Origin: Stramenopiles sp. TOSAG23-6
Lineage: Eukaryota; Sar
Assembly (NCBI GenBank): GCA_900128565.1
Contig: LT635940.1
Coordinates: 1 to 37,354 of the forward strand
Length of the DNA stretch: 37,354 nucleotides
Direction: 5' to 3'
Shown here one piece after another: positions 2,895-37,354 of the stretch. Numbering within the stretch: position 1 is the stretch's first letter; the number at the start of each line of letters is the position of its first letter. The translations under genes were made by a program, and so were the position numbers. The notes beneath the pieces are model-generated. The model searched no databases. It saw nothing but the letters and a program-made list of their open reading frames with translations, and had not been told where the DNA came from.

Positions 2895-4427
2895 ATGATT
2901 TCAAGAAGTTTTAACGAATTACCGTCACACGGTATGCTCTTGTATCAGTCACACATCAAACCACAACCTGAAACAGTACAGGATCAAGTACAGAAAGAGC
3001 TTCGCAAAGCCCTAGGCGAATCTTTACCTCCAAATAAAGGTGATGCCAGTATACCTTTAGATGTTTTAAATTTATGCTCACGTTTACATCCATATAATTG
3101 GAAAGTTTCAAACCATTCGAAAGAACGTCTTGGAAAGCTTATAAGTCAAAACATATCTTCAGGTGTACGGAGTAGTGGAGATCGATTCCAAAATTGTCCA
3201 GATCCAGTTTTGCCAGGAACATTTATTCAGGGTGAAAATCATAGAAAAGTAGCCAAAATAAGGAAACATTTTTCTGGGATATTTCGTTCCACAGCTCCAG
3301 GTAAATTGAACGAAACGGGAGATACAAAACGCGATAAAGCTGGTAATACATCACCCATGATGCCAGATATTACTAGACCTAATTACACAATGATAAGAAA
3401 CAATATCCATCTCATGCAAACACCAGCAGAACTTGCAGTGCATGTTTTAAATCGACGAAATAAAGCTTTAGCAGCTGCAAAGGCCTCTGAACTTCGTTCA
3501 ATATATCCGGCACCTCACTATATTTACGATATGTCTAATACAATGGAAAATACAATGAAAGAAAGATATTTGAAAAACTCTTCACCCATACCGACATCAA
3601 TTTCAAATAATACACATAAAAAAAAACGGGTTAAGAGTTCTCGCTTGCATTATACTCCAGAGATTCGATTAATAAATAATATACCAAGGAATTTGATGCA
3701 TCGAAACATTTCTACTGCACAGCGTAGATATTCTTACAATATAAAGCATGGAAATAAAAGAAAAAAACAGGGGGGAAATATTCACAAAACAAACTCTTTA
3801 TCTTCATCCAAAGTCGAATCTAAACGTTCGCATTGTGAAGACACGAATTCTAAAAGTTCGGATTCAAATGATGTGAATTCTAATGGTGGGAAAATACACT
3901 TTCGAGTACTAGGAAATACTGGAATCTCACAAAGACAAAGTAAAAATACAAAAACAGGGTTTTTAATAAATCGTAGTAAGCACACAGAGGCTGGTTTTTA
4001 TAAAAAACGGACTAACATTCCTAGATCAAATAATCTTTCTCGCTGGGCATCAACACAACGACAACCATCGAATATTTTTCGCCCTTTATCACAAAGATCG
4101 ATCCGTCCATTCAGTCCTGCACCATGGCATCATGTAGGTTTTCATCATTTCAATTTCATTTGATGTAAACAAAAACTTTGCACCTAACATTTTTTTGTTT
4201 TAAAACATTTTTTTTTCACATTACATGTACGTTTTCAAAATTAATTTCNAANTTAGNTTTTTTTTTCGTACGAAATTTTGTACCTAACAAATTTTGACTA
4301 TACTTTTTTTTTCACATAACATGATACTTCTAGAGGTTATAGTCATCCAGATTTTCCGGATTTTGATTTTCAATTACAAGGAAGTACGAAAGCACTTAAT
4401 GTTTCTGTACATGGACAGCACGAATAA
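2895..4427 (+). CDS. Basic protein of unknown function, interrupted by two tandem introners
   Basis: Exon 1 runs 2895-4133 and exon 2 runs 4323-4427 (TAA stop), giving about 447 aa. The intervening 189 bp consists of two end-to-end copies of the introner repeat; removing both joins APWHH to DTSRGYSHPDF in frame. No recognised domain. The N-terminal half has ordinary composition (a helical PAELAVHVLNRRNKALAAAKA stretch), and the C-terminal half is Lys/Arg/Ser/Asn-rich and likely disordered. Without splicing, the frame stops 30 bp into the first introner (4161-4163). I do not recognise the family; a chromatin- or cytoskeleton-associated low-complexity protein is possible but is speculation. Confidence 0.7.
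4134..4226 (+). mobile_element. Introner copy J1 (first of a tandem pair)
   Basis: 93 bp. It starts GTAGGTTTTCATC, has a diverged core CTTTGCACCTAAC, and ends TTTCACATTAC-AT. It is flanked by AT on both sides. Subfamily 2 (CACATTAC end). This is the most diverged copy in the core, so it may be older than its partner. Confidence 0.75.
4227..4322 (+). mobile_element. Introner copy J2 (second of a tandem pair; contains Ns)
   Basis: 96 bp directly abutting copy J1. It starts GTACGTTTTC, has the palindromic core CGTACGAAATTTTGTACC followed by TAAC, and ends TTCACATAAC-AT. Three Ns lie at about 4249-4257. The shared AT between the two copies acts as the flank of both, as expected if one inserted at the edge of the other. 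Confidence 0.8.
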
Positions 4428-4480
4428 ATTCTAAAACAGTTTAACCAAATAAAAAAATATACATCATATATATATATATA

Positions 4481-6154
4481 TTATTTATTTTTTCCAAGAC
4501 AAACGATCGACATACAACTCAATTCAGGACCATTCTCCCCAATTAATTTATATCGACAACCTCCAGCCACCTTTTGTAATTGTTGATTACTCTTTTGAAA
4601 TTGAGAAAAAGGTGCAGTTACAAGGCGTTTGGAGGCAGAGTGTTGAGTGATTAGTAGCAGCGAACTGTACATATTATTCCTTGACGCAATTGAGTCCAAA
4701 TTTTGCTTCCATTTCGGATCACTTGAAGTACAAAATGTAAATCGATTCTCATTTCTTTGTAATACATTTGGCAAAGCTACACCAACAATAGTGCACCAGT
4801 GACTACGCCGTCCTTTGTTCAACACAGGCAAACATGATCCCGGTTCTGAATCATATGGTAAAAGAATCAGATTACCTTTTGTTATATTGGATATAATGCG
4901 TATAGGAGATATATTTTTCCATACTTGTGTTTGGACAATTTCAGATCGAAATGATGCAATATGTGCAAGATGGGCGGCGTTGAACATTTCTCCATCCATA
5001 GTATAACCAAATCGTATTCCTTTTGATAACACATTCTCATTTTCACCTTTTTCATTTTGTACAAATGTTTGAACTAGTGTTTCCTCTATATTACCAAGTA
5101 GTACAGAAGATTTGCTCAAAGACATGTCTTGAGGACTCACACTACATTGACTACTACACATTTTGTCATCGTTTTTTGTCATCACACTATTCGTTTTTGC
5201 CACCGAACCATTGGATTTTGAAATTGAAGTTGTGTACTGGGCGATATCTTCTATAACTCCCCAAATACCAATGGTGGCAGCTTCCCCATTCGTTTGAAAA
5301 TAACTTTGCCTCAATAATGATAATCTATAAAAATTTTCTACTGCAGAAATAGCACAAAATCCACACGTCGGTCCCATTTGATTATGATGGGGAGGAAGAC
5401 ATGTTATAATTCGCCAAGCTATTGGAGGAGGACACTTGAGAGTAGAACAATTTTTCACAAAAAAATTTATCCCAGAACAGATATCATCAATTATTTCTTG
5501 AAATGTTCGTTTTGTTGGCTGTTTTCTTTGGAAAACATGAGAAATACGCCGTTGTAGCCACACTTTCTCATCTCCAGTTTTCCCTGTATCATCAACAGAG
5601 AAAGTCAAATTATTTGACTTAGTGTATTTTCTTGACTTACTCTGAAGCATTGTTTGAAGTACCGCAAGGCCACTACTTTCACTATCTGGCTCTTTTGAAC
5701 GACGAAGAAAACGGAAAACTTTTTTTTTCGTAGTAAAAGAACTACTCTCTTCATAGCCACATGATTTGTAAAATCCATTTGCCAGTTTTGGTGAAGTACA
5801 AAGGCAAAGATGAGTCATACCTAACCTCTTTGCAACTACTTCTGCCTGAGAAAGTAGATAACGACCGATACCACGACGACGCCAATTGTTGTGTACAATT
5901 ACATTTGATAAAATTCCTTTTGCGCCTGAAATTTCACCTGCTCCATGTTTCAACCGAATATATCCAATGACAATGTTCTCAGGTGATACAAGAACATAAT
6001 GTCTACTTGATTTCACAGATTTCTGTAAACTTGATGTCCACGAAGAATGCGTCGGAGGCTGTTTCCATTGCTGAGCGAGAAGAGTTGCACAAGACGAAAT
6101 AAGAGGAAGGGTTAGCGGAAGAAATGAGAATTCCGACTCTATTCTCTTTGTCAT
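4481..6154 (-). CDS. Fusion of NAA80-like GNAT acetyltransferase and ACTMAP-like actin maturation protease
   Basis: About 557 aa from the ATG at 6154. An in-frame ATG at 6220 exists but lies in the region shared with the divergent neighbour. Residues 10-140 form a GNAT domain: a substrate-side helix (SCATLLAQQW), the acetyl-CoA loop RRRGIG at 92-97 and FYKSCGY at 128-134. These features resemble NAA80, the acetyltransferase that modifies the actin N-terminus. Residues ~250-557 match the C39-like ACTMAP (C19orf54) family: MGPTCGFCAIS with the presumed catalytic Cys264, NLILLPYDSEPG, and RRSHWCTIVGV with the presumed catalytic His452. A charged linker (140-230) joins them. In animals ACTMAP trims the actin N-terminus and NAA80 then acetylates it, so this would be a two-step actin-processing enzyme in one chain. 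The protease assignment is good; choosing NAA80 over another GNAT rests on motif resemblance plus the fusion partner. Confidence 0.75.
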   Translation of the reverse strand: MTKRIESEFSFLPLTLPLISSCATLLAQQWKQPPTHSSWTSSLQKSVKSSRHYVLVSPENIVIGYIRLKHGAGEISGAKGILSNVIVHNNWRRRGIGRYLLSQAEVVAKRLGMTHLCLCTSPKLANGFYKSCGYEESSSFTTKKKVFRFLRRSKEPDSESSGLAVLQTMLQSKSRKYTKSNNLTFSVDDTGKTGDEKVWLQRRISHVFQRKQPTKRTFQEIIDDICSGINFFVKNCSTLKCPPPIAWRIITCLPPHHNQMGPTCGFCAISAVENFYRLSLLRQSYFQTNGEAATIGIWGVIEDIAQYTTSISKSNGSVAKTNSVMTKNDDKMCSSQCSVSPQDMSLSKSSVLLGNIEETLVQTFVQNEKGENENVLSKGIRFGYTMDGEMFNAAHLAHIASFRSEIVQTQVWKNISPIRIISNITKGNLILLPYDSEPGSCLPVLNKGRRSHWCTIVGVALPNVLQRNENRFTFCTSSDPKWKQNLDSIASRNNMYSSLLLITQHSASKRLVTAPFSQFQKSNQQLQKVAGGCRYKLIGENGPELSCMSIVCLGKNK

Positions 6155-6270
6155 CGTTTGGACTTTGAAAACACGTAAGTGAATGAAATTCAATGAATGA
6201 TTCAGAATGAATGAATTCAATCTTCAACGAAAATCATGACAGAAAGATTGAATTTGACAGAATCGTAAAA

Positions 6271-7092
6271 ATGACAGCATTCATTCACAACATAAATATA
6301 ATAGAACACAAAGTAAAAACACAAAGAAACAACATGAATAAAATATGCCAAACTCATTTTGTTAGAAAGGGAAACCGGGTGATTCCCCCTTTCCCAGCGG
6401 GATTTAGAAGGCTCGTCGTTGGCACGGGTTGTTTCTGGGGAAGTGAGAAGGGTTTTTGGCGATTGCCAGGAGTGTATAGTACTTCTGTTGGTTATGCTGC
6501 TGGATTAACTCGAGATCCCACCTATGAACAAGTTTGTAGTGGAAAAACCGGACATAACGAAGTTGTTCAAGTAATATATGACCCGAATGTAATTGCTACA
6601 TGGGACTTGATGCGTTTCTTTTGGGAATCGCATGATCCCACTCAAGGAATGGGTCAAGGAAATGACCGAGGAACGCAATATCGTAGTGGTATATATTGCA
6701 CGTCTCATGACCAAAAAGTTGTGGCAGAAGCTTCGAGGAATTCATATCAAAAACTTATCGGATCGAAGAAGCAAATTACAACTGAAATTCTTATGATGGA
6801 TGAAAAGAATCCAAATAACTCTAATGTCGATTGCAAGTTCTATTTTGCTGAAGATTACCATCAACAATATTTGGCAAAACCAGGGGCACGGCCATATTGC
6901 TCAGCGCAACCTCTCGGTATTAGCTTACAAAGTGAAGAAGGTACATCATTCTTTCAAGGGAAAATTGGCATGGAATTAACCAAGAGAGGTGAAGGGCCAC
7001 CAAAGCTATCGGAAAGTTTCTGGGATTTACACGCTCCAAAGCCAGGTTGTTCTGTTGTGAGTGCGTCAAATAAACCGATACTATTTCTATGA
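6271..7092 (+). CDS. MSRA: Peptide-methionine (S)-S-oxide reductase A
   Basis: Reduces methionine-S-sulfoxide in proteins with thioredoxin as electron donor. The catalytic GCFWG motif (Cys54 with this start) is followed by the full MsrA core: VGYAAG, PTYEQVCSGKTGHNEVVQV, FFWESHDPTQGMGQGNDRGTQYRS and FAEDYHQQYL. A C-terminal extension of about 60 residues contains two further Cys residues (YCSAQ and PGCSVV) that could act as resolving cysteines. The start is uncertain: ATGs at 6211, 6271 and 6334 are all in frame, and the conserved domain begins just after 6400. It is transcribed divergently from the actin-processing fusion gene with about 120 bp between the chosen starts. Stop is TGA, showing that TGA is a genuine stop in this organism. 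Confidence 0.93.
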   Translation: MTAFIHNINIIEHKVKTQRNNMNKICQTHFVRKGNRVIPPFPAGFRRLVVGTGCFWGSEKGFWRLPGVYSTSVGYAAGLTRDPTYEQVCSGKTGHNEVVQVIYDPNVIATWDLMRFFWESHDPTQGMGQGNDRGTQYRSGIYCTSHDQKVVAEASRNSYQKLIGSKKQITTEILMMDEKNPNNSNVDCKFYFAEDYHQQYLAKPGARPYCSAQPLGISLQSEEGTSFFQGKIGMELTKRGEGPPKLSESFWDLHAPKPGCSVVSASNKPILFL

Positions 7093-7289
7093 TGTTGTAT
7101 AGTGAAATAAAAAAATATATATTATATGTAACACCACACATAGAAGTACTTTATTTTAAACTTATTATAAATGTCACTTAAAATTCCCTCTCATAAACTT
7201 CTTTCGTAAACACAAAAATGGCATACTTTCTCCATACAAGGGAACCAGAGAACAGGAGTTCAAAATATGCAGTAGTTTCATAAACTTTC

Positions 7290-10200
7290 TTAGGAAAATC
7301 GACTTTGTTCTTTTCGCATCACTTGCTCGATTGTCATTGTACCATTGATCTGAGAACCTGCAGCTACTTGCCACGCCTGTCGCTTGGCCTCTTCCGCTTG
7401 TTCAGTTTCACGTTTCGATGGGCATTTGAATAAGCCAAAGACCGACGGTCTGATGACAATGCGACAGAGAATTCCCCATACAAGTTGCCCTCCACCGATA
7501 CCAAACACAATTAACCAATTCGTCAAAGATAAACCTACAGTTTTCATAACAATTCCACCAAATTGAGTCATAAAAACTTGTACAACAAAAGTACCAACCC
7601 AAATAATACAGAATATTGGATTTTGAGTAATATATTTGAATACATTAACTTCATCCTGAAGCATCCTAGAATTAATTTCATTGAAAATCTGCATGAAAAC
7701 AAAGACAGTAAAAATCATAGAATAATGTACGGTAATGACACCTTTGTCGCCTTCCGCTCCGTTATCATCAATTCCCAGTGATTTTGGAGCAAAAAGAAAA
7801 ATTAACAACCACACAATTTGGTAAAGCGCTGAAGTACAAATAAATCTTCGAATACGAGTTGTTATTAATGGTTTGTCAGAACCAATTGGTTTGCGTTTCA
7901 GAAGTTCATCTTGTGGTGGCTCTGTCGCGAGGGCAAGTGAAGCAAATGAATCCATAATCATATTGACCCATAAAAGTTGTACAGCCGTAAGGGGAGATAC
8001 CCCTTCAGAGACAGCTCCAATGAAAGCAATACCAATAGCGGTGACATTTACAGTGAGTTGAAACTGGAGAAACTTCGAAATACTATCGTAAATATTTCTT
8101 CCCCATTTTACTGCCTGTACGATAGATGTAAAATTGTCATCCATGAGGACAATTTTTGAAGCAGCCTTGGCAACTTCAGTACCAGCAATACCCATTGCAA
8201 ATCCAACATCAGCCTTTGCGAGGGCAGGAGCGTCATTTGTTCCATCTCCGGTGACAGCAACAACTTCCTTGTATCGGCCAAATCCAGGTTTGTTATAATA
8301 TGGATTAATTGTACCATCTTCACGTGTTGGGCCCATTCTCTTTTTAAGATATAACTTTGATTCCATCATACCACGCACAAGAATATATTTATCTCGTGGT
8401 GCACATCGAGCCACCACACGTAACTGTGGCCATAGCTTGTCTAAGACACGCCTGTTAATATCGTTACCATCTTGCTCTGGCTCTTCAAGAGTTACCATTT
8501 CACGGAATAATTGGCCTTCCATACCTACAATTGGTCCATTTAAGACCTTTCGCTGGGGTTCTCCAAAATGTTGTGACATGGATGGTCCGAGTTCTTCTCC
8601 TTCAACGACAACCTTACTTGCTACTCCACTCTTCAACTTTGCATCCATCATATACGTTTCCGAAGGAATCAGGCAACACTTGATAGCAATTGCCCTAGCT
8701 GTACGGATGTTATCACCAGTGCACATACGTACCGTGATTCCAGCGCGTTTACAAACACGAATGGCTTCTGGTACTTCTGGGCGAACTGGATCACGAATAC
8801 CAAAAATTCCAACAAGAGTCAAATCCTTGACAACGTCTTCATCACCACATGAAAGTGAGTTTTCTTCGCCATCTTGATTTTTTTCTTCCATCGCTTTTTG
8901 ACGCTCCGTTTCAGCAGCCCACTGACTTGGTGTCTTACTCATATCACGAAACGCAACTCCAATGGTTCGCAATGCTTCATCGGCCATTGAACCGAGTTGG
9001 GCAGTGATTTTAGCACGCAATGCGTCATCAATATTTGATGTAGTACCATCAGCATTCATTACCTTAGTACAGTATTGTAAAATCTTTTCAGAAGCTCCTT
9101 TGGAGTACACACGAGATCCTGGTGTATCATCACTTTTGACAACAATCGTCATTCGTTTGAACTTTGAATTAAATGGAAATAATTTACAACCTGCTGGCCA
9201 ATTATATGCTGCTGGGTTACGAACGCGTTTTTTGAGTTCAGAAAATGGCTTATCAATACTTTTAACGTCTAGCTCGATTGCGCACTGAAGTAATGCACAT
9301 TCAGTTGCATTACCCATGCGTTCAAACCCAGATGTAAATTTTGGATCGTTTGTTTTTTTTACATCTGTTTGCTGCTGCGTATTGAGAATCAACGCATTAA
9401 GCATTGTTGTCGTCAGTTGCTGATTGAGCCCATTTTTTGATTGGACACTGTCCTTTAAATCTCTCATTTTCATACGAGTTCCGCCTACATAAACATCTGT
9501 AACAGTCATAATATTTTGAGTTAGAGTACCGGTTTTATCAGAACAAATCGCTGTTGCATTACCCATTGTTTCACAAGAGTTTAAGTTTCGTACAAAACAA
9601 TTATTTGGAGGTTTACTCATCATTCGTGAAGAGTATACTAATGCAAGTACAACAGCAAGCGGCAAACCTTCAGGTACTGCAACAACAAGAATGGTTATAC
9701 CAGTAATGAAGTATTCAAGTATATGTTTGAAATCAGATTCGGCAAATAAATCTCCTGGGCATGTATATCCCATCAAATTTTTAAAGTCCGATGCAGACAT
9801 CCATCGGTAATAAACCATTTCAGGTCCATATAACGATTTTGTTCCATCTTTTACATCGACATTTTTCCAAGCAACACCACAGCAATCATCAAAACCAGAG
9901 GTAGCTGCTGTAAAATGAGCTTTCGCATTGCATGCAGGAAGATTTTTTGATTCTTTCTTCCCATGTTCTTTGTATGTGATGGTTTCACCATTCGCATCTT
10001 TACATACAGTACCTTCAGCATTGCAAGTATACTTGGTTTTACTTCTGTCACAGAAACACATCTCTTCAGTAAAAAAACCTCGTTTTGCTCCAACACCATA
10101 TTTCTTTGAGCCAGGCACATTAGGATTTGTAATTAATTTATGACCATCTGGTTCGGTATTCATTGCATAACTTTCAATACTGAAGCGAGTGATCATTATA

Positions 10201-11402
10201 ACAACTGTTAGAAGAGCTACAGCAAATCCAAACTTTCCAATTTGAGTTGCCATTACTTCAAGTTTCGATTCCAACACAGACGCCGCAATTCCTTCATGTT
10301 TTTCAACGACATACAATCTCTCAAGTTTAGCTGATTCATTCGTCCACAGTTTATCTTTGAGTTCAATATGAAAAGTTCTGTCATCAATTTCATCTTGTTC
10401 CAATGAAGTAACGGCGAAAACCTGATCGCCAATCTTCAACTCCAAACCTAATCCATCCTCTTCATGTCCACCACAGCCACAACAACCAGAAACAGCATCT
10501 TTCGCTAACATAATACGATCATCGAAACGATCAGAAACTTCAATGGAATCCGCAGTAAACGTAACCTGATTGCTATTCTTCGTTGTGACGCACTCACCAT
10601 CAAAAGGTATGTAGAGTGAATCACCAGATACTGTTGAACTGATAATTCCTGCCTGTGAATTAAGACCAACTGCAACAATAACCATCGCACCAGTACCCTC
10701 TTTGACTCCTGTACCTGATAAAATAAATGGGTGTTTATCCGGATCTTTTTTACATAAGTCAGACTCTCCCGTTAGCGAAGCTTCGTCCATTTTCAGACCA
10801 TCGCATTCGATTACTATGCCATCAGCATCTACAAGATCCCCATATGTTAGCTTTACAATATCACCAACAACAAGATCACATGAGAAAACTGCCTCTTCGT
10901 CAGCTGCTTCGCTGCTGATAAACTGCCCGTCTCGCCAAACATTAACCTTTTTTCGGGACATTTCTGCTTGCTGAGCAGCAAAACTTAAATTTTTCTTATA
11001 GTTTGTTCCAGAATCAACATTAACAACAACAATAACTGATAAGAGAATTGCGAGACCTTCAACCCATCCTAAATCAGCGGGGTCTTCAACGAAGAGACCA
11101 ATAATAAGCGAAATTATGGCACACGCGTTTAAAAGCATAATAACAGGATCGTTCAAAGCTTCCTTACAGAGTTCGAAATATGTTGGTAACTTTGTTTTAG
11201 GCAATTCATTTCGGCCAAATTGGCCTTCTCTCACACCCCTTCCAGTTTGACCAGTTGAGTTGATACCTTTCTTCGGATCAACTTTAAGTAGCTTACAAAT
11301 ACCAACAGCTCCTCCAAGTTTTGCAACATCGTCTGCTCCCCCTTCAGAATGTGCACACGTAATTCTCTTAAGCTCCGCATCTGTAATATCAAAAGAAGCC
11401 AT
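7290..11402 (-). CDS. P-type Ca2+-ATPase (plasma-membrane/PMCA type) with Cys-rich extracytosolic insertion
   Basis: 1370 aa, single exon. It pumps Ca2+ out of the cytosol using ATP. Visible motifs, in order: TGES in the actuator domain, PEGL at 577-580 in M4, the phosphorylation site SDKTGTLTQN (Asp622), TGDNIRTARAIA and GDGTNDAPAL, and the C-terminal transmembrane block (LLWVNMIMDSFASLALATEPP). The PMCA/P2B class is indicated by overall order and the M4-M6 residues. Two oddities: a ~100-residue Cys/Gly-containing insert (CCGCGG) between the actuator domain and M3, and a ~145-residue M3-M4 loop (about 410-555) with eight cysteines, whereas this loop is short in animal and plant PMCAs. The C-terminal tail is short (~50 residues) and lacks an obvious calmodulin-binding helix. 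Confidence 0.93.
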   Translation of the reverse strand: MASFDITDAELKRITCAHSEGGADDVAKLGGAVGICKLLKVDPKKGINSTGQTGRGVREGQFGRNELPKTKLPTYFELCKEALNDPVIMLLNACAIISLIIGLFVEDPADLGWVEGLAILLSVIVVVNVDSGTNYKKNLSFAAQQAEMSRKKVNVWRDGQFISSEAADEEAVFSCDLVVGDIVKLTYGDLVDADGIVIECDGLKMDEASLTGESDLCKKDPDKHPFILSGTGVKEGTGAMVIVAVGLNSQAGIISSTVSGDSLYIPFDGECVTTKNSNQVTFTADSIEVSDRFDDRIMLAKDAVSGCCGCGGHEEDGLGLELKIGDQVFAVTSLEQDEIDDRTFHIELKDKLWTNESAKLERLYVVEKHEGIAASVLESKLEVMATQIGKFGFAVALLTVVIMITRFSIESYAMNTEPDGHKLITNPNVPGSKKYGVGAKRGFFTEEMCFCDRSKTKYTCNAEGTVCKDANGETITYKEHGKKESKNLPACNAKAHFTAATSGFDDCCGVAWKNVDVKDGTKSLYGPEMVYYRWMSASDFKNLMGYTCPGDLFAESDFKHILEYFITGITILVVAVPEGLPLAVVLALVYSSRMMSKPPNNCFVRNLNSCETMGNATAICSDKTGTLTQNIMTVTDVYVGGTRMKMRDLKDSVQSKNGLNQQLTTTMLNALILNTQQQTDVKKTNDPKFTSGFERMGNATECALLQCAIELDVKSIDKPFSELKKRVRNPAAYNWPAGCKLFPFNSKFKRMTIVVKSDDTPGSRVYSKGASEKILQYCTKVMNADGTTSNIDDALRAKITAQLGSMADEALRTIGVAFRDMSKTPSQWAAETERQKAMEEKNQDGEENSLSCGDEDVVKDLTLVGIFGIRDPVRPEVPEAIRVCKRAGITVRMCTGDNIRTARAIAIKCCLIPSETYMMDAKLKSGVASKVVVEGEELGPSMSQHFGEPQRKVLNGPIVGMEGQLFREMVTLEEPEQDGNDINRRVLDKLWPQLRVVARCAPRDKYILVRGMMESKLYLKKRMGPTREDGTINPYYNKPGFGRYKEVVAVTGDGTNDAPALAKADVGFAMGIAGTEVAKAASKIVLMDDNFTSIVQAVKWGRNIYDSISKFLQFQLTVNVTAIGIAFIGAVSEGVSPLTAVQLLWVNMIMDSFASLALATEPPQDELLKRKPIGSDKPLITTRIRRFICTSALYQIVWLLIFLFAPKSLGIDDNGAEGDKGVITVHYSMIFTVFVFMQIFNEINSRMLQDEVNVFKYITQNPIFCIIWVGTFVVQVFMTQFGGIVMKTVGLSLTNWLIVFGIGGGQLVWGILCRIVIRPSVFGLFKCPSKRETEQAEEAKRQAWQVAAGSQINGTMTIEQVMRKEQSRFS

Positions 11403-11756
11403 TATTATTAATGGTAAATCCTTCTATAGAAACAATGATTATTCGCGAAACAAACACTTGCAGCCACACACCAGTCTGCAAACAAAAGAGATCAAATTAA
11501 AAGAGCAGCTTTCGTTTTGAAGGAGATCTCGTTTGTGTCTATTTTCGAAAAACGAGAGAGACGAGAGCAAGAGCAAATGCAAATGAGAATCTTAAAAAAG
11601 TACCGCGAAAAAAACTACACTTTTCAAAAAAATTGTTGTTTTTCGTGTGTCATCATATTATTTGCGTCACACGTGTCATTTCGATTCTTCTTTTTGCTAT
11701 TAAGTTGAACTTGAAGTTAAACTTGAACATACAAAATTTAATATATTACACTAATC
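11403..11756. other. Divergent intergenic/promoter region
   Basis: 354 bp between the Ca2+-ATPase start and the small coiled-coil gene. It is A/T-rich with GAGAGACGAGAGCAAGAGC purine runs near 11550-11575 and a GCGTCACACGTGTCA stretch near 11664-11678 that contains a CACGTG palindrome (E-box/G-box type). No RNA gene or conserved ORF seen. Confidence 0.4.
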
Positions 11757-12140: not shown

Positions 12141-12250
12141 CCCCATAAAAATAAGTCTTACAAATTATCTATACATTATTTAGTACACACCCAATAAAAT
12201 GCAAATTATTTTAAATTTATTTAATGTGCCATATTCTTATAGTAAATTTA

Positions 12251-24262: not shown

Positions 24263-25565
24263 TTATTTTTCTAGTAATTCTTTTGAAAACATAGCGTTCT
24301 GTTTATCATCATTCGCAGTTGCCACTTGGGAACAATCTCCAATGATATAGTTCAGTTTTTTTTTTGATTCTACAGCAATCGGATGGTCAAAAATACAAAT
24401 AGGTAACTGATAAGTATCATTGTAAAAATACTTTCGTTTTACACCTTTCCAAACCTTTTTATCCTGGACTTCAGCAATTGGACAGGGTATATAAGTGGTA
24501 GTAAAACCAAGAGCATCAAGCTCCTGTTGAGCTATTTGAGCGTACACATGTATTTTGGAAAAATATTTCAATTGTTTTTTCGTTAGGTACAAAATTTCGT
24601 ACGAAAAAAAAAATCGATTTTTTTGTTAAAAAAAAAATAAAACATCCACCATGAAAAATAATGTTATCTGGACAAAGTCCATTAAAAAATGAATAACATC
24701 CACCAGGTCTTAAAATCCTAGGCAATTTATGGTGAAACTCTGATTGCTCCCCATAATTCTCTCCATATGTATCAAAATATATACCATCAAAACTTCTATT
24801 ATCAATTTTTTCCATCATATCCTGCCAACGACCATGTAAAATCGTCACTCCTGGTTTCTTATCCCAACCCTCTTTTAACATATAAGCATAGACTTGAGGA
24901 TGGGCTTCAATGATTGTGTGACTACGTGGCTTGCGATCCTGAATATAATTATCAATTATTCCCATTCCAAAACCTACATTTAAAACATCTGCTCCTCGTT
25001 TTTGTTCCCGATTTTTACCAAGGCTAGTGATAACGTCAGCAGAAGCCTCCATCAATGGGCTTTCCCAAGACATCATAACACCGTCTTTGTCCGAGTCTAA
25101 TAGTTGTTTTCCGTCCTCAGTATATTTTACATCTCGTTTAAGATAATCATTGCTATACTTGTTTGGTTCCGCCTTTAAGGTCTCTTTAGAAGTAGACTCG
25201 TTCGTGTGCTCACCAGGTCTGGTACTCATGGAACTTTTTTTCTTCAAGCACGCTAATAAAAGCTCAGAAGTTACCCCAGCATTAACGATACGATCGACAC
25301 ATTTTTGATGTCCAGCTTCTAATGCATAATCACCAGCACATTTATACTGGCGGTCCACTGCGTTCCATGGAGCACCTCTATAGAGCAACTCATTCATAAC
25401 CTCCAAATGACCATGTTGAGCTGCAGCCATTAAAACTGAGGTACCCGTTTCACTTCGCTGATAAAATTGCTCGGCTCCGTCCTTCAGTAACTGACGAACT
25501 AATTTAAAATTACCTGTTACAGCTGCATCCCATAACTGCTCATTTAATACATTGATTTCTGTCAT
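24263..25565 (-). CDS. RMT2: RMT2-like protein arginine N-methyltransferase with ankyrin repeats
   Basis: Exons 25565-24650 and about 24549-24263, interrupted by introner E, giving about 400 aa. Ankyrin repeats occupy residues ~5-100 (NEQLWDAAVTGNFKLVRQLLKDG, SVLMAAAQHGHLEVMNELLYRG). The methyltransferase domain has VLNVGFGMGIID (194-205) for S-adenosylmethionine, TIIEAHP (217-223), GRWQDM and YFDTYGE. After splicing, GLCPDNIIFH continues as VYAQIAQQELDALGF or DVYAQ..., as in yeast Rmt2 and plant homologues. Yeast Rmt2 methylates the delta nitrogen of an arginine in ribosomal protein L12. The exact 3' exon boundary is ambiguous by three bases. Without the second exon the protein would lose the C-terminal beta-barrel part. 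Confidence 0.9.
24550..24649 (-). mobile_element. Introner copy E in the RMT2-like gene
   Basis: About 100 bp on the minus strand, same sense as the gene. Starts GTGGATGTTTTATTTTT, shares a long A-rich spacer and the CGTACGAAATTTTGTACC-TAAC core with copy A, and ends TTTTCCAAAATAC. Flanked by ATG on both sides. Subfamily 1. The 5' end has a GG insertion relative to the GTATGTTTTA consensus. Confidence 0.85.
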
Positions 25566-28651: not shown

Positions 28652-28911
28652 TGTGGATATTGTTAAAAATGCCGTAAAATGTTTCCACTTGTAGATACCT
28701 TAACTCATGAACTGGACACGAACANACACCAATAAATACAAAACTTTAAACGGTTCAGTCAATTGTTACCCGGTACCCACGAAATCGTGTCAAAAGAAAA
28801 CAAAAATTCAGCGTGACGAAACCTCGTGTAGACTGTGGCTTACTTACAACACTTTCACCTTTCCATTACCTTTTTCTCAAGGTGGTAAAGTGAATTGCCG
28901 TCGTGCTTAGA

Positions 28912-31900
28912 ATGACAAATACCCCTCGTGGTACTCAGGCGCGTTTTGGTAGTAGTGGCTATGAAAAGTCATTATACGGGCGAAAAAACTATTCTTTTGG
29001 AGACCAGAAGAAAAAGCTCGTCTATCATGAGGACCGACCTTCACGAATAGCGTGTGTGAAATTTGGTTTGCTGTCTGGTCTAGAAATGGCGCGTATGTCT
29101 GAGATGCATGTATGTTCGAGCGAGCTTTATCAGCTTTCAACTCGTGAGCCCAGCCGTAATGGTTGCATAGATAGACGTCTAGGTGTCTCTGATAAGCGAA
29201 GTAAGTGTGAAACATGCGGTAAAAATTTAGCAGATTGCATTGGTCACTTTGGTCACATACAGCTCGCTCTCCCAGTGTTTCATATAGGATATTTTAACAC
29301 CATTATCAAAGTGCTTCAAAACATATGCAAAACTTGCTCTCGTACGCTCCTCGATGATAAAGAAAGAACATCATATCTTGCTCAAATGAGATCAAAATCC
29401 ACACATGTTTTAAGAAAACAACAAATAATTAAAAAGATCACAGCTCGATGTCGTCGTGTAACTCGGTGTCCTCACTGTGGTGCAATCAACGGCCCTGTAA
29501 AAAAGATAGCAGGTGCTCGTGGATTACGTGTTATTCATGAAATATTTAAAGTTAAGCAAGCTGTAGAACTAAAGCAGGAGTTTCGTGAAGAATTCGAGGA
29601 GGCTTGTCAAGCGAATCCAGAAATTGAACAACATATTAACAAAGCTCAACATGATCTTGACCCTGCGTATGTATATAACTTATTCAAAACCATTAAAGAC
29701 CACGAATTGGATCTATTTTGGTTGTCTCCTGAACTATCTAGACCAGAGAATTTATTACTCACACATATTTTAGTGCCCCCCGTGTGTATAAGACCTTCCG
29801 TCCAGATGATGGCTGGTGCATCCAATGAAGATGATTTGACCATGGCTTTGAGAGGTATAATAGAAGCTAATCAAGAACTTCAGTTTCATTTAGAAAAAGG
29901 TGCTGCAACAAAACATGTTGTTGAAGCGTGGGACCATTTATCTATGCAAACAGCCCAATATATTAACGGGGCATTACCCGGTTTACCTCCTGCTGTACGA
30001 AAAAGTATAAAACCTATCCGAGGCCTGTGCCAAAGACTCAAAGGTAAACAAGGCCGTTTTCGAGGCAATCTTTCTGGTAAACGAGTAGATTTTTCTGGTC
30101 GAACAGTCATTTCTCCTGATCCTAATTTGCAAATTGACCAAGTAGCCATTCCAAGGCGTGTAGCGATTCGATTGACCTATGTATGTTTTATTTTTTTTTT
30201 AACAAAAAAATCGAGTTTTTTTTTCGTACGAAATTTTGTACCTAACGTTTTTTTTTTGAAATATTTTTCCAAAATACATCCAGAACGAGTCAATAATCGA
30301 AATATTAAAAAAATGAGAGCTGCCGTTCTAAATGGTGAACTTAACTGGCCTGGTGCAAATTTTGTAAGAAAGAAAGGCAAACGTCCAATATCATTGTTGT
30401 ATGCAGATAAAAAGCGAACTGCTAAAGATCTTAAAATTGGTGATATTGTTGAACGTCATTTAATTGATGGTGATGTAGTTTTGTTTAATCGCCAACCTTC
30501 CCTTCATAAGATGTCAATTATGTCTCATTGTGTAAAGGTAATGCCATGGAGAACTTTTCGATTTAATGAATGTGTATGCTCTCCATATAATGCCGATTTT
30601 GATGGTGATGAGATGAATATTCATGTGCGTTTTTATCATTCATTCCAAATTTAAATGTTTTTTTTTCATAGATAATTTTGTACCTAACAAATTTGAAATT
30701 TTTGAAATATTTTTTATTACACATGTTCCACAAACTGAAGAAGCGCGTGCTGAAGCATTTACTCTGATGAATGTGAAAAGAAATTTAATTACACCTAAAA
30801 ATGGTGAGCCTCTAGTAACGGCAACACAAGATTTTCTCACGGCGTCATTTTTAATGACTGCGCGTGACAATTTTCTTGATCGGGATGCGATGTGTCAAGC
30901 TTGTTCCCATATGCAAGACGCTGGCTTTCACGTTGTCTTACCTCCACCTACGATTGTTGCACCAGTTACATTATGGACGGGTAAACAATTATGGTCAGTT
31001 TTATTACGTGCGTGTATCGGAAAATCCAAAGAATTGAACATTATTGCCAGAGGCAAATGTTTTGTAAGTCCGAATGAACGCGTGGGGTATCAAGACTTGG
31101 ATAATTGTTTATGCCCAAAAGATGGTTGGGTAATTGTTCGTAATTGTGAAGTTTTATGTGGCAGACTAGGAAAGGGGATTTTAGGTGGGAAGAAACAAGG
31201 AATTATTTTCACTATTGTTCGTGATCATAGTGTTGAAGCTGCTGCAATGATGATGGTAATGATGACAAAATGTGTCACACGCTGGCTGACAGGTCACGGA
31301 TTTTCTATTGGAATCGATGACGTTTCACCAACACAGCAACTGACAAAGCGTAAAGCGAAAGTATTGGAAGAGAATTTTGAAAAATGTCGTGTTAAAATTG
31401 ATAAATACAAAGCAGGAACGCTGCAAATGAAGCCAGGTTGTAACATGGATGAGTCGCTTGAAGCTGATGTAAAAGGTATACTTAGTGCTGTTCGTGAAGA
31501 AATGGGTTCTATGTTGATGGCAACTCTGCCTAATTATAATTCACCTTTTATTATGGCTACATGTGGTTCTAAAGGATCTGCCTTAAATATATGTCAGATG
31601 GTTGCGTGTGTTGGTCAGCAGGTAGTAAATGGTGAACGTGCTCCTGAAGGTTTTGTTCAACGTACTTTACCGCATTTTGGTATTAATGCTCGCGAACCTG
31701 AGGCAAAAGGTTTTGTAGCTAGTTCATTTTATACCGGACTCGATGCAATGGAGTTTTTCTTTCATACAATGGGGGGTCGAGAAGGTCTTGTCGATACTGC
31801 AGTAAAGACAGCTGAAACAGGATATATGTATGTTTTATTTTTTTTTCAAATTCGATTTTTTTTTTTTGAAAATTTTGTACCTAACGAATTTTTTTCTGAA

Positions 31901-34003
31901 ATATTTTTCCAAAATACATGCAACGTCGTTTAATGAAAGCTTTAGAAGATTTATCTTTACAATACGATGGTACAGTGCGAAGCAGTACCAAACAAGTAGT
32001 GCAATTTACATATGGTGATGATGGTCTGAATGTTTGTTTCCATCATGAATTTTTTATCTAATTTTTTTCATACGAAATTTTGTACCTAACAAACATTTTG
32101 AATTTTTTTTAAATATTTTTTCACAACACATCCATCCTGTATGGAAGATAATGAACGACCTGTAGATTTGAATCGTTTATTACGAATTGTTAGTGCTGAG
32201 TTTTCCGTTGGGCAAAAGTTTTCTTTAAGTGGACCAGGGATGTCACCAGAACAAATTTCTGCATCAGCAGAGTCGTTTATTGCATCACCAAAATTAAATA
32301 TATTACCCCACATTCGTAAATTTGTGGAAGAAATTAGAGAATTTAGCAAAAATCTGTGTGATAAAGTGAACAAAGGTGTACTGTCCTGCGGTTTACAAAA
32401 TTTTAATAATAGTAAAAGTTCAAAGAAAAAGAGTAAATCAAAACAAACGAAACCATCGTGGGGCAGTTGGCCTACTGTGTCAAAAATAAGAGCCGATTGG
32501 CAGCACGAACTATCTGCATTTGAGGCATCATCAAAATGGCGCGCACAAGCTGCAGATAAAACAAAACAAGCTTGGATGGAAGAAGGATCTCGAATCTTTG
32601 AGAACGTACACGCGATTCATACGGAAGTATTAGATGAAGTATGGAAACGTGCATTAATTAAGTATACTATGGCTACAATGGAATCAGGTGAGGCAGTTGG
32701 TGCTGTTGCTGCTCAAAGTATTGGTGAACCTGGTACACAAATGACATTGAAGACATTTCATTTTGCTGGTGTTGCTAGTATGAATGTCACTTTAGGTGTT
32801 CCTCGTATTAAGGAAATAATCAATGCTACAAAAAATATATCAACCCCAATTATTACAGCAGAATTGCAATCTGATCAAAGTGAAATTGCTGCGAGAATTG
32901 TGAAAGCTCAAATTGAAAAAACTACTTTAGGTGAAGTATCAAAATCTATGAAGGAAGTGATTGGTCCTGGTTTGTATTGTATTGAAATTACTCTAGACAT
33001 GGAAGCGATCCGTAAATTGTATCTACAAGTGGATGCATTCTCTGTTTGTCAAGCAATTATAAATGATTCTAAACTAAAATTGAAAGCTCAACACTTAGAG
33101 CGTGAAGGTGATGACGTCATTCGTATATATACACCATCGGAAATTGTGAGGATGGCACGCGCAAAAACGCATGGTCCAAAGCCTCCTGTCAACGGTAATC
33201 GTAATAGTCAATATTTTAATAGTCAAATATTGAAAGAGCATTTACCAAGTGTCATAGTTCAAGGTATTAAAGATGTTACTCGTGCTGTTATTAACAAAAT
33301 TGATGCTACAGCAGGAAATCGAGCTCGTTATAATTTGCTTGTTGAAGGAAACAATATGCTTGATGTCTTAGGTACAGATGGTATAGCTGGTACAAAAACT
33401 ACAAGTAATCATATCATGGAAGTTGAAATTACTCTTGGTATCGAAGCGGCGCGAACAAAAATTATTCATGAAATTAAGTATACATACGGCAGTTATGGAA
33501 TCACCGTCGATGAACGTCATTTGATGCTTCTTGCAGATGTTATGACGTATAAAGGTGAAGTTCTTGGTATTACTCGATTTGGTATAGCAAAAATGAAAGA
33601 TAGTGTTCTAATGCTTGCATCTTTTGAAAAAACGAGTGATCATTTATTTGATGCAGCTGTACATGCGAGAGAAGATGAGATTGAAGGTGTATCAGAATGC
33701 ATAATCATGGGTATTCCAATGCCAGTCGGTACCGGCCTTGCCAAGTTAGTCCATAACCCAGAAAGGTGTGCGTTAGATAGTATGCCATACCCGGTAATGA
33801 GAGATGTTACACCATTAACTATTGGTGCTAGAAATCAGAAGTTATGTGCTTATAAAGCTAAAGAAGAGGAGTACCATAGAAATAGACGACCAGACTTATT
33901 ACTCAATATGGATAAAGATGATTTGATGTTGAACGCTCATCACAATGAATCGAAAAATATTAAAATTGAAAACACAATTGTAAAGGAAGAACCAGTACTA
34001 TAA
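28912..34003 (+). CDS. RPC1: DNA-directed RNA polymerase III largest subunit
   Basis: Five exons (28912-30180, 30280-30624, 30725-31827, 31920-32031, 32132-34003) separated by four introners; about 1566 aa. It forms the catalytic cleft of Pol III, which makes tRNA and 5S rRNA. Visible: N-terminal zinc sites ([17 protein letters not shown] and [10 protein letters not shown]), [27 protein letters not shown], the catalytic [10 protein letters not shown] aspartates, the bridge-helix/trigger-loop region ([40 protein letters not shown]), and the C-terminal [35 protein letters not shown] block. Pol III rather than Pol I or II is supported by [12 protein letters not shown] and the overall sequence. 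The start is the first ATG in the frame. All four introners must be removed to recover family sequence. Confidence 0.95.
30181..30279 (+). mobile_element. Introner copy A in RPC1
   Basis: 99 bp. Starts GTATGTTTTATTTTT, contains the CGTACGAAATTTTGTACC-TAAC core, ends TTTTCCAAAATAC-AT. Flanked by AT. Removal joins LTY to PERV (human Pol III has LTFPEKV). The copy is 3n long with no stop in frame, so an unspliced transcript would stay open. Subfamily 1. Confidence 0.9.
30625..30724 (+). mobile_element. Introner copy B in RPC1
   Basis: 100 bp. Starts GTGCGTTTTTATC, core ATTTTGTACCTAAC, ends TTATTACAC-AT. Flanked by AT. Removal joins DGDEMNIHV to [10 protein letters not shown], which is contiguous in essentially all multisubunit RNA polymerases, so this copy gives the cleanest proof of splicing. 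It contains an in-frame TAA (the spliced frame would stop if retained). Confidence 0.9.
31828..31919 (+). mobile_element. Introner copy C in RPC1
   Basis: 92 bp. Starts GTATGTTTTATTTTT, core AAATTTTGTACCTAACG, ends TTTTCCAAAATAC-AT. Flanked by AT. Splits the ATG codon of TGYM|QRRL, just after the trigger-loop region. No AG occurs between its branch motif and its end. Confidence 0.9.
32032..32131 (+). mobile_element. Introner copy D in RPC1
   Basis: 100 bp. Starts GTTTGTTTCCATCATG, core CATACGAAATTTTGTACC-TAAC, ends TTTCACAACAC-AT. Flanked by AT. Removal joins GDDGLN to [10 protein letters not shown], matching the family GGDGLDPxxME. Subfamily 2. Confidence 0.9.
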
Positions 34004-34094
34004 TGTGTGCAATTATTTAATTATATTTATAAATGTACATCGAACGATAATGTGTGCAATTATTTAATTATATTTATAAATGTACATCGAACGA
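34001..34094. repeat. Perfect 47-bp tandem duplication between two convergent genes
   Basis: 34001-34047 is repeated exactly at 34048-34094. The first copy begins with the TAA stop of RPC1. The second contains the last codons (SFDVHL) and stop of the convergent methyltransferase gene. The identity of the copies means the event is recent. Confidence 0.95.
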
Positions 34095-35000
34095 ATCGTC
34101 ATCACATGCATTTTTTACATGTTCAGGAGTAATCCAACCTAATAAGCTCTTCCCTTGTTTAAATTCCTCAGTGCGGCGTAAAATCGGGCTAATAATTTCA
34201 GGTGCATATATATCAAGTTCCTCGCACAAATCTGCAAATGCACAGCCTGAAAGAGAATATGGTATATTTGTTTGTACTCCTTCAGTGTCTTTTAAATCAT
34301 TTTTCTTTTTATAACCCCAAAATAGTAAATTTGGATTAATGGCTAATATCATTACTTTATCAAAAACTTCTAGATATCTATCCGTGACAATTTTCATCAT
34401 TTCCCGATTTGCAATGACATTGCACAAACATGATCCTCCAGGTTCAAGTACCGAATATGCTGCATACAGAGTTGTCATCTTCACCACACTTGCTGGTGGT
34501 AATTCAAGAGGAGCATTATCTATTGCGTTTTCTGCAGCTATATCGAGTATAATCAAATTATATCGGTGTCTTGAATGAACATGTCTATTCATTCTCTTCC
34601 AATCGCAACCAAAAGAGGTAGGAAAAGATGTTTTTGATTTTTTCGAACTTTCCGAACTCTTTGAAATTATATCAATTTCATTTTCTACAGCAGAGGCTGC
34701 ATCTTTCAAAAAGGAAACACCACATTGACAGATTACTTTAATTTGTGATCCAACAGCCATACCAAAAAAGTTGACAGCAGCATAAATGACTTCAGGCGAT
34801 AGATCTACAACATTTATTTGACAAAACGGAAAAGATGCCGCAATTGCATTCGGTACAGCCCCACCACCACATCCAAGAACAGCCACTCGTAATTGCTCTT
34901 TTTCTTCATACCTACAGGAATTATCTTTCGTCAATGCACCATGTTGTTCTAATAATGTCACGATACTAAGAGCAAATGCCTGGTTAATTTCGAATGGTGC
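34074..35000 (-). CDS. Class-I (spermidine-synthase/METTL13-like) methyltransferase exon, lacking its own start
   Basis: 309 codons from APFEINQAF to the stop at 34074. It has an S-adenosylmethionine-binding Rossmann core: RVAVLGCGGGAVPNAIAASFP, then INVVDLSPEVIYAAVNFFG, later YNLIILDIAAENAI and LEPGGSCLCNVIANREMM. The order resembles the C-terminal domain of METTL13 and spermidine-synthase-like methyltransferases. The exon is preceded directly by introner F and has no credible ATG of its own; the nearest in-frame ATG lies inside the introner. It can be spliced in frame to the upstream anoctamin exons. Either it is the 3' part of a fusion gene, or its true 5' exons are elsewhere and an introner-driven rearrangement or assembly join put it here. 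Confidence 0.75.
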   Translation of the reverse strand, partial: APFEINQAFALSIVTLLEQHGALTKDNSCRYEEKEQLRVAVLGCGGGAVPNAIAASFPFCQINVVDLSPEVIYAAVNFFGMAVGSQIKVICQCGVSFLKDAASAVENEIDIISKSSESSKKSKTSFPTSFGCDWKRMNRHVHSRHRYNLIILDIAAENAIDNAPLELPPASVVKMTTLYAAYSVLEPGGSCLCNVIANREMMKIVTDRYLEVFDKVMILAINPNLLFWGYKKKNDLKDTEGVQTNIPYSLSGCAFADLCEELDIYAPEIISPILRRTEEFKQGKSLLGWITPEHVKNACDDDSFDVHL

Positions 35001-35090
35001 ATGTATTTTGGAAAAATATTTCAAAAAAAATCGTTAGGTACAAAATTTACTATAAAACAAAATTCGAATTTAAAAAAAAATAAAACATAC
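35001..35090 (-). mobile_element. Introner copy F at the anoctamin/methyltransferase junction
   Basis: 90 bp, minus strand. Starts GTATGTTTTATTTTT, core AAATTTTGTACCTAACG, ends TTTTCCAAAATAC-AT. Unlike nine other copies, the flanking dinucleotides differ (GT on the left, AT on the right), as expected if the two halves came from different insertions. Subfamily 1. Confidence 0.85.
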
Positions 35091-36679
35091 ACTCATTTGG
35101 AAAATTCTCGTAATCAAACCATTGTCCCAATTCACAAAATTTGTATTGTGAAAAAATATTTTACATACGAAATTCGTTAGGTACAAAATTTCAATGAAAA
35201 AATATAAATTCGAAATTCATGATGAAAACATACTGTTTGTGTTCTTGTGGGTAATTATATGTACTCCATGACCCAGTGTATGTTGTTTTCGCAGACATTG
35301 CAGCAATCGCAGCGGATTTATGTATTGTGAAAAAATATTTCAAAAAAAAACGTTAGGTACGAAATTTCGTACGAAAAAAACCTTAAATAAGAAATTCATA
35401 TAAAACGTACATCATCTGCTACTTTCAGAATTCGATCTTTAATCGCAACGCTTCCTTCTACAAATAAAGGCATAATTGTAGATTTTAACCACTCACAGCA
35501 GGTACATGATGGTGCCATTTTGGCGTAAATATACCATTGCATGAAAGGGCCAAAGACGACGAAAATGACTAAACAATTTAAAAGCATTATAGGAGGCATC
35601 CACATCAAAACTTTACTACGATTATTGTTTGGATCATATACACGTTCAAGTTGTCCATGGAAATCTAGATTTGGGCGGAGTTCAAATTCAGGTTCGTATG
35701 GATTAGGAATCTCTTCGTTGACACCTTGACGAGGTAAATTCCATCGATGACAAATGACATGACAATATCTTGTCCAATATTGTTTTAGTAAAGGTCCCCA
35801 AACACACGTAATCAATATACCTGTTATAGTTAATAACATCACATAAGCATTCCAATGAAAAAGAGAAACCACCCATAGACATGCACCAGTAATTCCTATA
35901 GGTACTATAAGAATTGTGTAGAATTGCACAAATGCAAAGTATAAAGCTACACGTTCGCCAAAATGATTTCGGATTTCGTCAACAAGCCAATCCGCACGAG
36001 CCCGAGCAACAGATGGAAATAAAGTACAATTTTTATTCATATACATTTTATGTAGCCACTTATTCCAGATTTGATCTTGTAGCGGATACATTGCTTTTAT
36101 ACCCAATTCAGGGCAAGAGTGTGCTAAAATTTCAGATTCACTGCCGACAACTGTGCCTAGTGCACGGCGTATAATTCTATCAGTTAAACGCAATTCCTCA
36201 GCATGAGAAAATGTCTGATGTTCAACTTCACCCATTGAACTATCGGTATCTATAATTCCGTATTTAATACGTCTGGCGCGTTCTACTCGCCTTCTCTCGT
36301 GCCTCAAAAGATTATGATCATCAATGCGCCGTTTACCTTTTCGACCGGTAGCCGATAAAAGGACTGTCAGTGTGTGTGCTGTTTCAACAGTTTTTTCTAA
36401 GAGACCGATATGAATTCCAGCTCTACACATTGTTTGTAAGGTCAAAATATGTCGTTCGATAGTATCATGGTCGATATATATATGAGCATCCTGTCCATCT
36501 TTCTGTTTTAGTTTCGACTTTGGTACACAATCTAAAATTAGCGCTATACTATAGCGTAGCCTGTCTTTTGGTGAAGTATCTAAAATATCAAAAAGAGAAC
36601 CGCTGCCGATTTTGCCTACATCAGTTGTTGGTGGCTTCTTTTGTGAAGCCAAAGACATTCCACGCAAAATTTTTGGCAT
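35091..36679 (-). CDS. Anoctamin (TMEM16) family protein, N-terminal half only
   Basis: Exons 36679-35411, 35319-35234 and 35142-35091, separated by introners H and G. Residues 1-230 are the cytosolic N-terminal region (PLQDQIWNKWLHKMY ending). Residue 240 starts the diagnostic anoctamin motif HFGERVALYFAFVQFYTILIVP (TM1), then TM2 (AYVMLLTITGILITCVWGP), LLKQYWTRYCHVICHRWN, the soluble loop with PYEPEF...LERVYDPNNN, and TM3 (MWMPPIMLLNCLVIFVVFG). Anoctamins are Ca2+-activated channels or lipid scramblases with ten membrane helices; the remaining seven helices and Ca2+ site are missing here. The last exon is readable in two frames depending on introner G and F boundaries (QNFVNWDNGLITRIFQMS or QFCELGQWFDYENFPNE). 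The gene appears broken or joined to the methyltransferase at introner F. Confidence 0.75.
35143..35233 (-). mobile_element. Introner copy G
   Basis: 91 bp, minus strand. Starts GTATGTTTTCATCATG, core GAAATTTTGTACCTAACG, ends TTTCACAATAC. Flanks differ by one base (CA left, AA right). Subfamily 2. Confidence 0.85.
35320..35410 (-). mobile_element. Introner copy H
   Basis: 91 bp, minus strand. Starts GTACGTTTTATATG, has the perfect palindrome GTACGAAATTTCGTAC before CTAAC, ends TTTCACAATAC-AT. Flanked by AT. Interrupts the anoctamin gene after KVADD. Subfamily 2. Confidence 0.88.
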
Positions 36680-36993
36680 TTTAAATGTTCCAGATGAAAT
36701 TACGACATATTAGTTCATTCTTCGTGGTTGTTCTTTTGAATGCCCGGAACTTCAAGAGAGAATATAACTAATAGCTACTTGTTAACGTTACGTGTTAGCG
36801 TTACTATGTAGACTAGACGACATAGGTCGGACATAAAAAACCGTTTCATCGGTGTTTTTCTCGGTTTCGTATATTTTTTCTAAGTCACACACAAGTCATC
36901 ATAGTGCGTAAACCTACTATAGGCAAGGTGTCATTGATATATATATATATTCTATATACTTAAAATGGATTAGTTTTATGAATAAATCGAAAG
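36680..36993. other. Divergent intergenic/promoter region
   Basis: 314 bp between the anoctamin start and the last gene. Contains two similar short segments, GTTAACGTTACG and GTTAGCGTTAC (near 36781-36803), and an AT-dinucleotide run at 36937-36950. Two tiny upstream ORFs (ATG at 36965 and 36978) precede the start of the last gene. No RNA gene seen. Confidence 0.4.
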
Positions 36994-37255
36994 ATGAGTA
37001 GACGTGGGCTAGAAAAAGATAGATTACCAGCAATTAGAAGAGGAGATCACCATCCCCGATCCCAAGCAACCAAAGAAGAATGGTCTCAGTTTCTACGGAA
37101 AAGGTACAACAGAAAAAGTACAAAGAATGGTGTTCGAAATGCATTAATGGACACCAATAGAACTACAGAGCAACTTCGTGTTCTTTCTATATGGCTGCGA
37201 GGAAGTAGTATTTGTCCAGATAGCGTCAGCGACAAAGCTATCTTGAAAGTTGCTT
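36994..37255 (+). CDS. Start of a gene of unknown function (3' partial, exon 1)
   Basis: 87 residues from ATG to the donor of introner I. Basic at first (MSRRGLEKDRLPAIRRGDHH) and then helical (KEEWSQFLRKRYNRKS, TTEQLRVLSIWLRG). Without splicing the frame continues only seven codons into the introner. I do not recognise the family. The remaining exons are outside the window. Confidence 0.6.
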
Positions 37256-37354
37256 GTACATTTTATATGAATTTCTAATTTATTTTATTTTTGGTTTTCA
37301 TACGAAATTTCGTACCTAACGATTTTTTTGTTGAAATATTTTTTCACAATACTT
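37256..37354 (+). mobile_element. Introner copy I (reaches the window end)
   Basis: 99 bp. Starts GTACATTTTATATGAATTTC, like copy H, core CATACGAAATTTCGTACC-TAAC, ends TTTCACAATAC followed by TT. The left flank is also TT, so here the repeated dinucleotide is TT rather than AT, supporting a true target-site duplication rather than a fixed AT end. Confidence 0.85.

Follow-up and report, generated by a model that had tools for sequence, protein, structure and literature searches.

What removes hundred-base repeats from the middle of conserved genes, and how did these repeats come to lie there? The question is raised by a contig of the uncultured marine protist Stramenopiles sp. TOSAG23-6 (LT635940.1, contig C398; 37,354 bases, hereafter the window) from a partial assembly of 8,027,113 bases in 408 contigs. 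Eleven copies of one repeat interrupt open reading frames (ORFs) in the window, and an initial annotation had read them as introners, that is, repeated, sense-oriented, intron-sized sequences within genes. The present analysis indicates that they are very probably introners derived from one short mobile element that inserts at the DNA level and duplicates 2 bp of its target, the second dinucleotide ending the intron. In the proposed mechanism, a putative transposase would insert copies, mostly at AT, and would thereby duplicate 2 bp of target. The element would supply a donor (GTATGT or GTACGT) and CTAAC approximately 39 bases before the 3′ end; an AG would not come with it. Of the two dinucleotide copies left by the duplication, the second would form the last two intron bases, giving an intron GT...AATACAT whose splicing would return the pre-insertion message exactly. 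Finally, the major spliceosome would use the donor and CTAAC, its acceptor step being relaxed or otherwise modified such that AG would be unneeded for these introns.

A sense-oriented family whose removal restores the reading frame

The size of the family was evaluated using a 16-base core, AAATTTTGTACCTAAC. With at most one mismatch, the core gave 2,381 matches in the assembly (1,249 + 1,132), and the reversed core pattern, used as a control, gave 1 + 0. The count of 2,381 includes duplicated contigs; because some contigs are duplicated or palindromic (e.g., C13/C14 and C2), independent insertions are fewer. Contigs C2 and C13/C14 are mirrored or near-identical, and perfect inverted repeats occur in the window (1–55 and 3544–3598) and, likewise, at locus L044 (about 3517–3782); these features suggest amplification chimeras of single-cell DNA. 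A profile scan was run on the window and a sample of 20 stretches of 4 kb, picked by contig number. It returned 50 matches at E<0.1, or 47 without overlaps, and 0 in the reversed sequence.

From all fetched loci (L numbers), 231 copies were gathered, of which 201 were unique. Only duplicates with an identical element and 10 identical bases of flank were removed. A further 62 copies with unclear borders or flanks were set aside before counting, leaving 139. As copies were recruited by core match, strongly diverged ones are missed. The bounded copies had a median length of 100 bases (range 78–130). For the 129 copies with a full-length neighbour, best-neighbour identity had a median of 91%, was at least 95% in 18 and reached 97%. 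The donor began with GT in 135/139 copies (column frequency about 0.96–0.97), reading GTATGT in 80 and GTACGT in 29. A branch-site-like CTAA[CT] was present in 134/139 copies, at a median of 39 bases before the 3′ end. Just 5′ of CTAAC, many copies carry a near-palindrome, GTACGAAATTTYGTAC, which is exact as GTACGAAATTTTGTAC in 55/138; this is perhaps a protein-binding or transposase site. Five loci (L008, L012, L013, L030 and L044) contain the core but also extended runs of T or A, and their ends are poor; they may represent decayed or non-intronic relatives.

The copies are oriented with their host genes. Specifically, 72 of 73 copies had a longer open frame beside them in the sense than in the antisense direction. 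Of the 47 places in the unbiased sample, 38 were sense, 1 was antisense and 8 were unclear. This orientation bears on programmed DNA elimination without RNA splicing, in the manner of the internal eliminated sequences of ciliates, which would fit short, precise units with a 2-bp repeat at their flanks. Ciliate internal eliminated sequences have no orientation bias relative to genes, however, and elimination would be expected in either orientation. Together with the donor and branch-like motif, the strong sense bias leaves this explanation barely conceivable.

Removal of the copies repairs the reading frame. Flanks were long enough for evaluation at 131 copies. On either side of 109 of these, a single frame was clearly the longest, and removal of GT...AC plus two bases restored the frame in 93 of the 109; the other two classes contained 12 and 4 copies. 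The lengths of the same unit spread over the three classes modulo 3 (30, 24 and 19 of 73 copies), so simple translation of the copies in place would not work. Translation through the copies was dropped as a candidate on these grounds and because frame and homology require removal. Adjacent coding segments in the sample and window were separated by 16 gaps, 12 of which contained a copy. The remaining four comprised an ordinary GT-AG intron (window 580–695), a gap at L041 that begins with GTATG and carries an ACTAAC motif, and two that were not intron-like. The intron at 580–695 suggests that an AG acceptor is also tolerated. Its GTACGTTTTCATTAT start resembles one introner subgroup, and it may be an old copy that acquired AG.

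Conserved proteins place the excision borders exactly. Without its four copies, RPC1, which encodes the largest subunit of RNA polymerase III, is a single open frame of 1,569 codons, and the junctions are gap-free versus yeast and human RPC1 at all four introns. Similarly, the ATP synthase beta gene at L034 reads DASWDKFDQQKRSKWTG after removal, where a relative that is 86% identical, P0121, reads DANWDKFDQQKRSKWTG; P0121 may derive from RNA or DNA sequence. A photolyase-like host (L004) yielded 0 PDB matches at 1e-3 and was not used as a register test. Overall, the multiple copies, their intron size, their sense placement within coding sequence, the restored frames and the identity of up to 97% between nearest copies bear out the introner reading. 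The evidence from reading frames and conserved proteins points to splicing.

The 3′ end and the target-site duplication

An AG at the intron end is one of the least variable features of genes. In this family, AATAC or a variant of it is followed by the last two intron bases, which were AT in 115 of the 139 copies and AG in 6. Genome-wide, with duplicates included, TTTCCAAAATAC was followed by AT in 554 of 629 instances, by AA, AC or AG in 41 (AG in 15) and by another first base in 34. The copies share a GT donor and a branch motif with canonical GT-AG U2 introns and lack the 3′ AG. The initial annotation, correct as to introners, had missed both the non-AG acceptor and the 2-bp duplication; the excised unit extends two bases beyond the AATAC-type end that it gave.

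We considered whether the AT border is simply misplaced, the copies being ordinary GT-AG introns that in truth end at an AG close by. The 6 copies with AG at the same place and the intron at 580–695 are in keeping with this. However, a cut at the first AG past the branch motif preserved the frame no more often than chance (33 of 105 copies), and it gave the wrong residues at the RPC1 and PRMT2-like junctions. A hidden AG is therefore a very remote prospect.

The exact register of the cut is less readily fixed. Because AT also precedes the donor in the majority of copies (AT/AT in 95 of 139), the cut can slide by up to two bases with the message unchanged. At the AT/AT copies, AT-AC introns cut as ^ATGTATG...AATAC^, a known non-canonical pair, would yield the same message as GT...AT introns. 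The copies with unequal flanks separate the two cuts in that they keep the upstream dinucleotide. At L053 (TG before, AT after), the tryptophan of a PHD finger, aligned in NSD3 and NSD2, is obtained only from the upstream dinucleotide. At L093 (1702; TT before, AT after), the downstream dinucleotide would introduce a stop within a domain aligned with 2-hydroxyacyl-CoA lyase. At window 24548–24647, the upstream dinucleotide gives HGVY, like the nearest relative, P0002; a fungal protein has HDVY. These copies identify the intron as GT...AT, or as GG...AT in two of the three deciding cases, a decision that rests on few copies. Among the 139 copies, unequal flanks were non-AT/AT in 20 and AT/non-AT in 8, a skew expected if the second dinucleotide, being intronic, is maintained as AT and the first changes along with the exon. 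We consider AT-AC introns, including the U12 type, quite unlikely.

Hairpin-guided introns that are independent of the spliceosome, like the non-conventional introns of euglenids, would leave the acceptor dinucleotide free, and the GTAT and ATAC ends of the copies are able to pair. Nevertheless, the near-constant GT donor and CTAA[CT] motif argue otherwise, and the T/C change at position 4 is uncompensated at the other end (C occurs with A in 33 of 38 copies). Neither the ends, which lack compensation, nor the GTACGAAATTTYGTAC near-palindrome, in which no covariation was found, supported a hairpin model, and such introns are highly unlikely here. With respect to GT...AT introns, the chances are about even that the last two bases carry no signal for splicing. 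Whichever dinucleotide was duplicated (mostly AT; also TT, CT, AA, AC, GT and GG) would then serve as the acceptor, and context or position would set the cut two bases past AATAC. If so, a transposon could create a functional intron almost anywhere, neither supplying nor recruiting AG.

The dinucleotides on the two sides of the copies were compared using permutation. Flanks were equal in 107 of the 139 copies (permuted mean 86, maximum 96; 2,000 permutations). Of 36 copies with a dinucleotide other than AT before the donor, 12 repeated the same dinucleotide at the end (random mean 0.97, maximum 7; 20,000 trials). For a targeted test, 40 stretches with non-AT ends were fetched: 5 were too short and 35 were scored, of which 7 lacked a clear 5′ end, leaving 28. 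In these, the flanks matched in 20 (TT, CT, GT, AA, AC and GG; permuted mean 5.0, maximum 12; 10,000 permutations). Excluding one duplicate (L103/L111) and three copies from the earlier set (L119, L121 and L128), 17 of 24 matched. L110 and L118 look alike; they have no clear 5′ end and hence lie outside the 28. As the end dinucleotide equals the exon bases before the donor far beyond chance, the copies carry a 2-bp target-site duplication.

The duplication also bears on how the family spread. RNA-mediated spread by reverse splicing, as opposed to DNA transposition, would suit copies that are almost exclusively genic and sense and that lack clear terminal inverted repeats. By eye, the terminal repeats comprise only GTAT/ATAC and a bulged T/A run, below the 6 nt used in the available text of Gozashti et al. 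2022 (PMC9860276). Reverse splicing is not expected to duplicate the target, yet non-AT flanks match within copies beyond chance, and we judge this route unlikely.

Four observations weigh against insertion of a DNA element followed by splicing at GT...AT. First, 16 of the 109 copies break the frame rule, although homology assigns one of them (L093, 1702) to it. Second, flanks were unequal in 8 of the 28 targeted copies. Third, full-length copies outside genes were hardly seen, and a plain DNA transposon without selection or target preference predicts otherwise; antisense and intergenic copies may be scarce owing to selection, insertion preference or loss of recognizable ends. Fourth, searches of the partial assembly for U1, U2 and U6 small nuclear RNAs and for U2AF35 found nothing. 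This outcome is uninformative: in the controls for the RNA searches, U2 and U6 matched no control genome, and U1 was below the cut-off in three prokaryotes only. On balance, we infer removal at the RNA level, a role of the major spliceosome and transposase-driven mobility.

Window copies, host genes and gene models

A profile built from the 139 copies recovered all eleven copies where the initial annotation had located them, and the strand split, 7 on + and 4 on −, was the same (Table 1). The sole further match in the window at E<0.1 was a weak antisense fragment (24565–24605) that lies inside the copy at 24548–24647. The annotated GT start holds for most copies; that at 24548–24647 begins GGATG. 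Sense placement of every copy in an ORF had also been claimed, and a crude ORF test departed from this at two places, scoring 35141–35233 as antisense and 4227–4322 as unclear. The excision rule keeps the frame open across 35141–35233, where the host frame is uncertain.

Table 1. Positions of introner copies, host genes and an ordinary intron in the window.
Position	Strand	Feature	Basis or remark
580–695	+	Ordinary GT-AG intron without the core; donor GTACGTTTTCATTAT is introner-like	Frame runs on as LVRADGTYD
4134–4226	+	Introner copy GTAGG...ACAT, first of a head-to-tail pair; 5′ flank AT, end AT	Profile match
4227–4322	+	Introner copy GTACG...ACAT, second of a head-to-tail pair	Profile match
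24516–25565	−	PRMT2-like gene, first exon ORF, reads through into the intron	
24548–24647	−	Introner copy GGATG...ACAT in the PRMT2-like methyltransferase gene	Junction fixed by homologs
28903–34003	+	RPC1, RNA polymerase III largest subunit gene, with four introner copies inside	Start codon provisional
30181–30279	+	Introner copy 1 in RPC1	Gap-free junction LTY/PER
30625–30724	+	Introner copy 2 in RPC1	Gap-free junction NIH/VPQ
31828–31919	+	Introner copy 3 in RPC1	Gap-free junction GYM/QRR
32032–32131	+	Introner copy 4 in RPC1	Gap-free junction GLN/PSC
35001–35090	−	Introner copy GTATG...ACAT	Profile match
35141–35233	−	Introner copy GTATG...ACAA; host frame uncertain	Profile match
35320–35410	−	Introner copy GTACG...ACAT, end of an anoctamin-like ORF	Profile match
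37256–37354	+	Introner copy GTACA...ACTT, TT before the donor, reaches the window end	Profile match

The copies at 4134–4226 and 4227–4322 abut head to tail, with zero exon between them. Further pairs without an intervening exon were observed at L009 (around 1404–1500) and on the minus strand of L036 (around 572–635). The pairs look as if a newer copy had entered the AT that ends an older one, and each might be removed as one intron or in two steps. The copies at 35320–35410 and 37256–37354 both have TTTTATATGAATTTC after the donor, and the coding sequence upstream is similar (ILKVADD and ILKVA), a likeness possibly inherited via gene duplication.

The gene content of the window is eukaryotic and includes RPC1, a DEAD-box helicase, a P-type cation ATPase and an anoctamin. 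The PRMT2-like protein is identical to EukProt GSMAST32.ASY1.ANO1.926.1 at 331 of 333 aligned residues. Judging from its name, GSMAST32 probably belongs to the MAST-3 single-cell genomes that Seeleuthner et al. 2018 described (PMC5778133).

The PRMT2-like gene also illustrates the consequences for gene models. A published, MAST-labelled model of this gene, P0001, reads HGGSQQEL where the window translation has HGVYAQIAQQEL. Joining the exons across a GT-AG intron at 24532–24643 yields exactly HGGSQQELDALGF. Because this join reproduces P0001, the predictor chose an AG inside the next exon. The nine other relatives listed are ungapped there (e.g., HGVYCEIAKQEL), and P0001 loses conserved residues. 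Thus, gene callers that force GT-AG misplace exons in this genome. Two further short segments, GEHTNESTSK and KNREQKRG, are likewise absent from P0001; the window (24516–25565) encodes both in uninterrupted open frame. The MAST-3F single-cell genome is described in PMC5778133 as having 2,694 genes in 21.1 Mb, and low gene counts in MAST-3 may share the same cause.

Comparison with known systems

If the proposed mechanism is correct, the dominant intron class described here combines a normal donor and branch motif with a transposon-duplicated AT acceptor. Intron gain would then escape the need for an AG in the target, and AG-independent choice of the 3′ splice site would become testable. Titles and the beginnings of abstracts contained no report of introners in MAST lineages, preprints and most subscription papers being outside this scope. 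PMC5778133 contains "splic" 0 times and "intron" twice, and PMC8163842 contains "intron" 0 times.

Non-canonical borders are shared with the non-conventional introns of euglenids, for which the available text of PMC4770533 describes variable borders and an end-to-end RNA structure. By contrast, the present family has a constant donor and no supported end pairing. In the animal Fritillaria borealis (Soo et al. 2026, PMC13326754, as available), most introns lie outside GT/AG, the core spliceosome is kept and U2AF subunits are duplicated. The donor of the present family is ordinary, in contrast, and U2AF was not found in the partial assembly.

The origin of the splice sites is most similar in the introners of, for example, Chrysochromulina, which, according to the text available for Gozashti et al. 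(PMC9860276), carry a donor and take their acceptor from the duplication. Those duplications are of 4 bp, with splice-site nucleotides GY/AG. The donor is likewise element-borne here and the acceptor likewise comes from a target duplication, with 2 bp and AT instead. The screen in that study begins with annotated introns of NCBI and Tara genomes, and the present source organism may be among these, with its introns as annotated.

From the literature text at hand, the closest known system is that of the non-canonical introners of Amoebophrya A25 and A120 (Farhat et al. 2021, PMC7789003). In that system, the variable splice motifs share no signature; direct repeats span 3–5 nt and inverted repeats 8–20 nt, and families number hundreds to thousands. 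Inverted repeats of 8–20 nt joining the ends were not found in the present family, whose end pairing is short and uncompensated. Common to both are repeated introns outside GT-AG, direct repeats at the borders, thousands of copies and a marine protist host. Unlike the Amoebophrya introners, the present ones form one dominant family with a constant GT donor, a 2-nt duplication and an AT end in 88% of copies.

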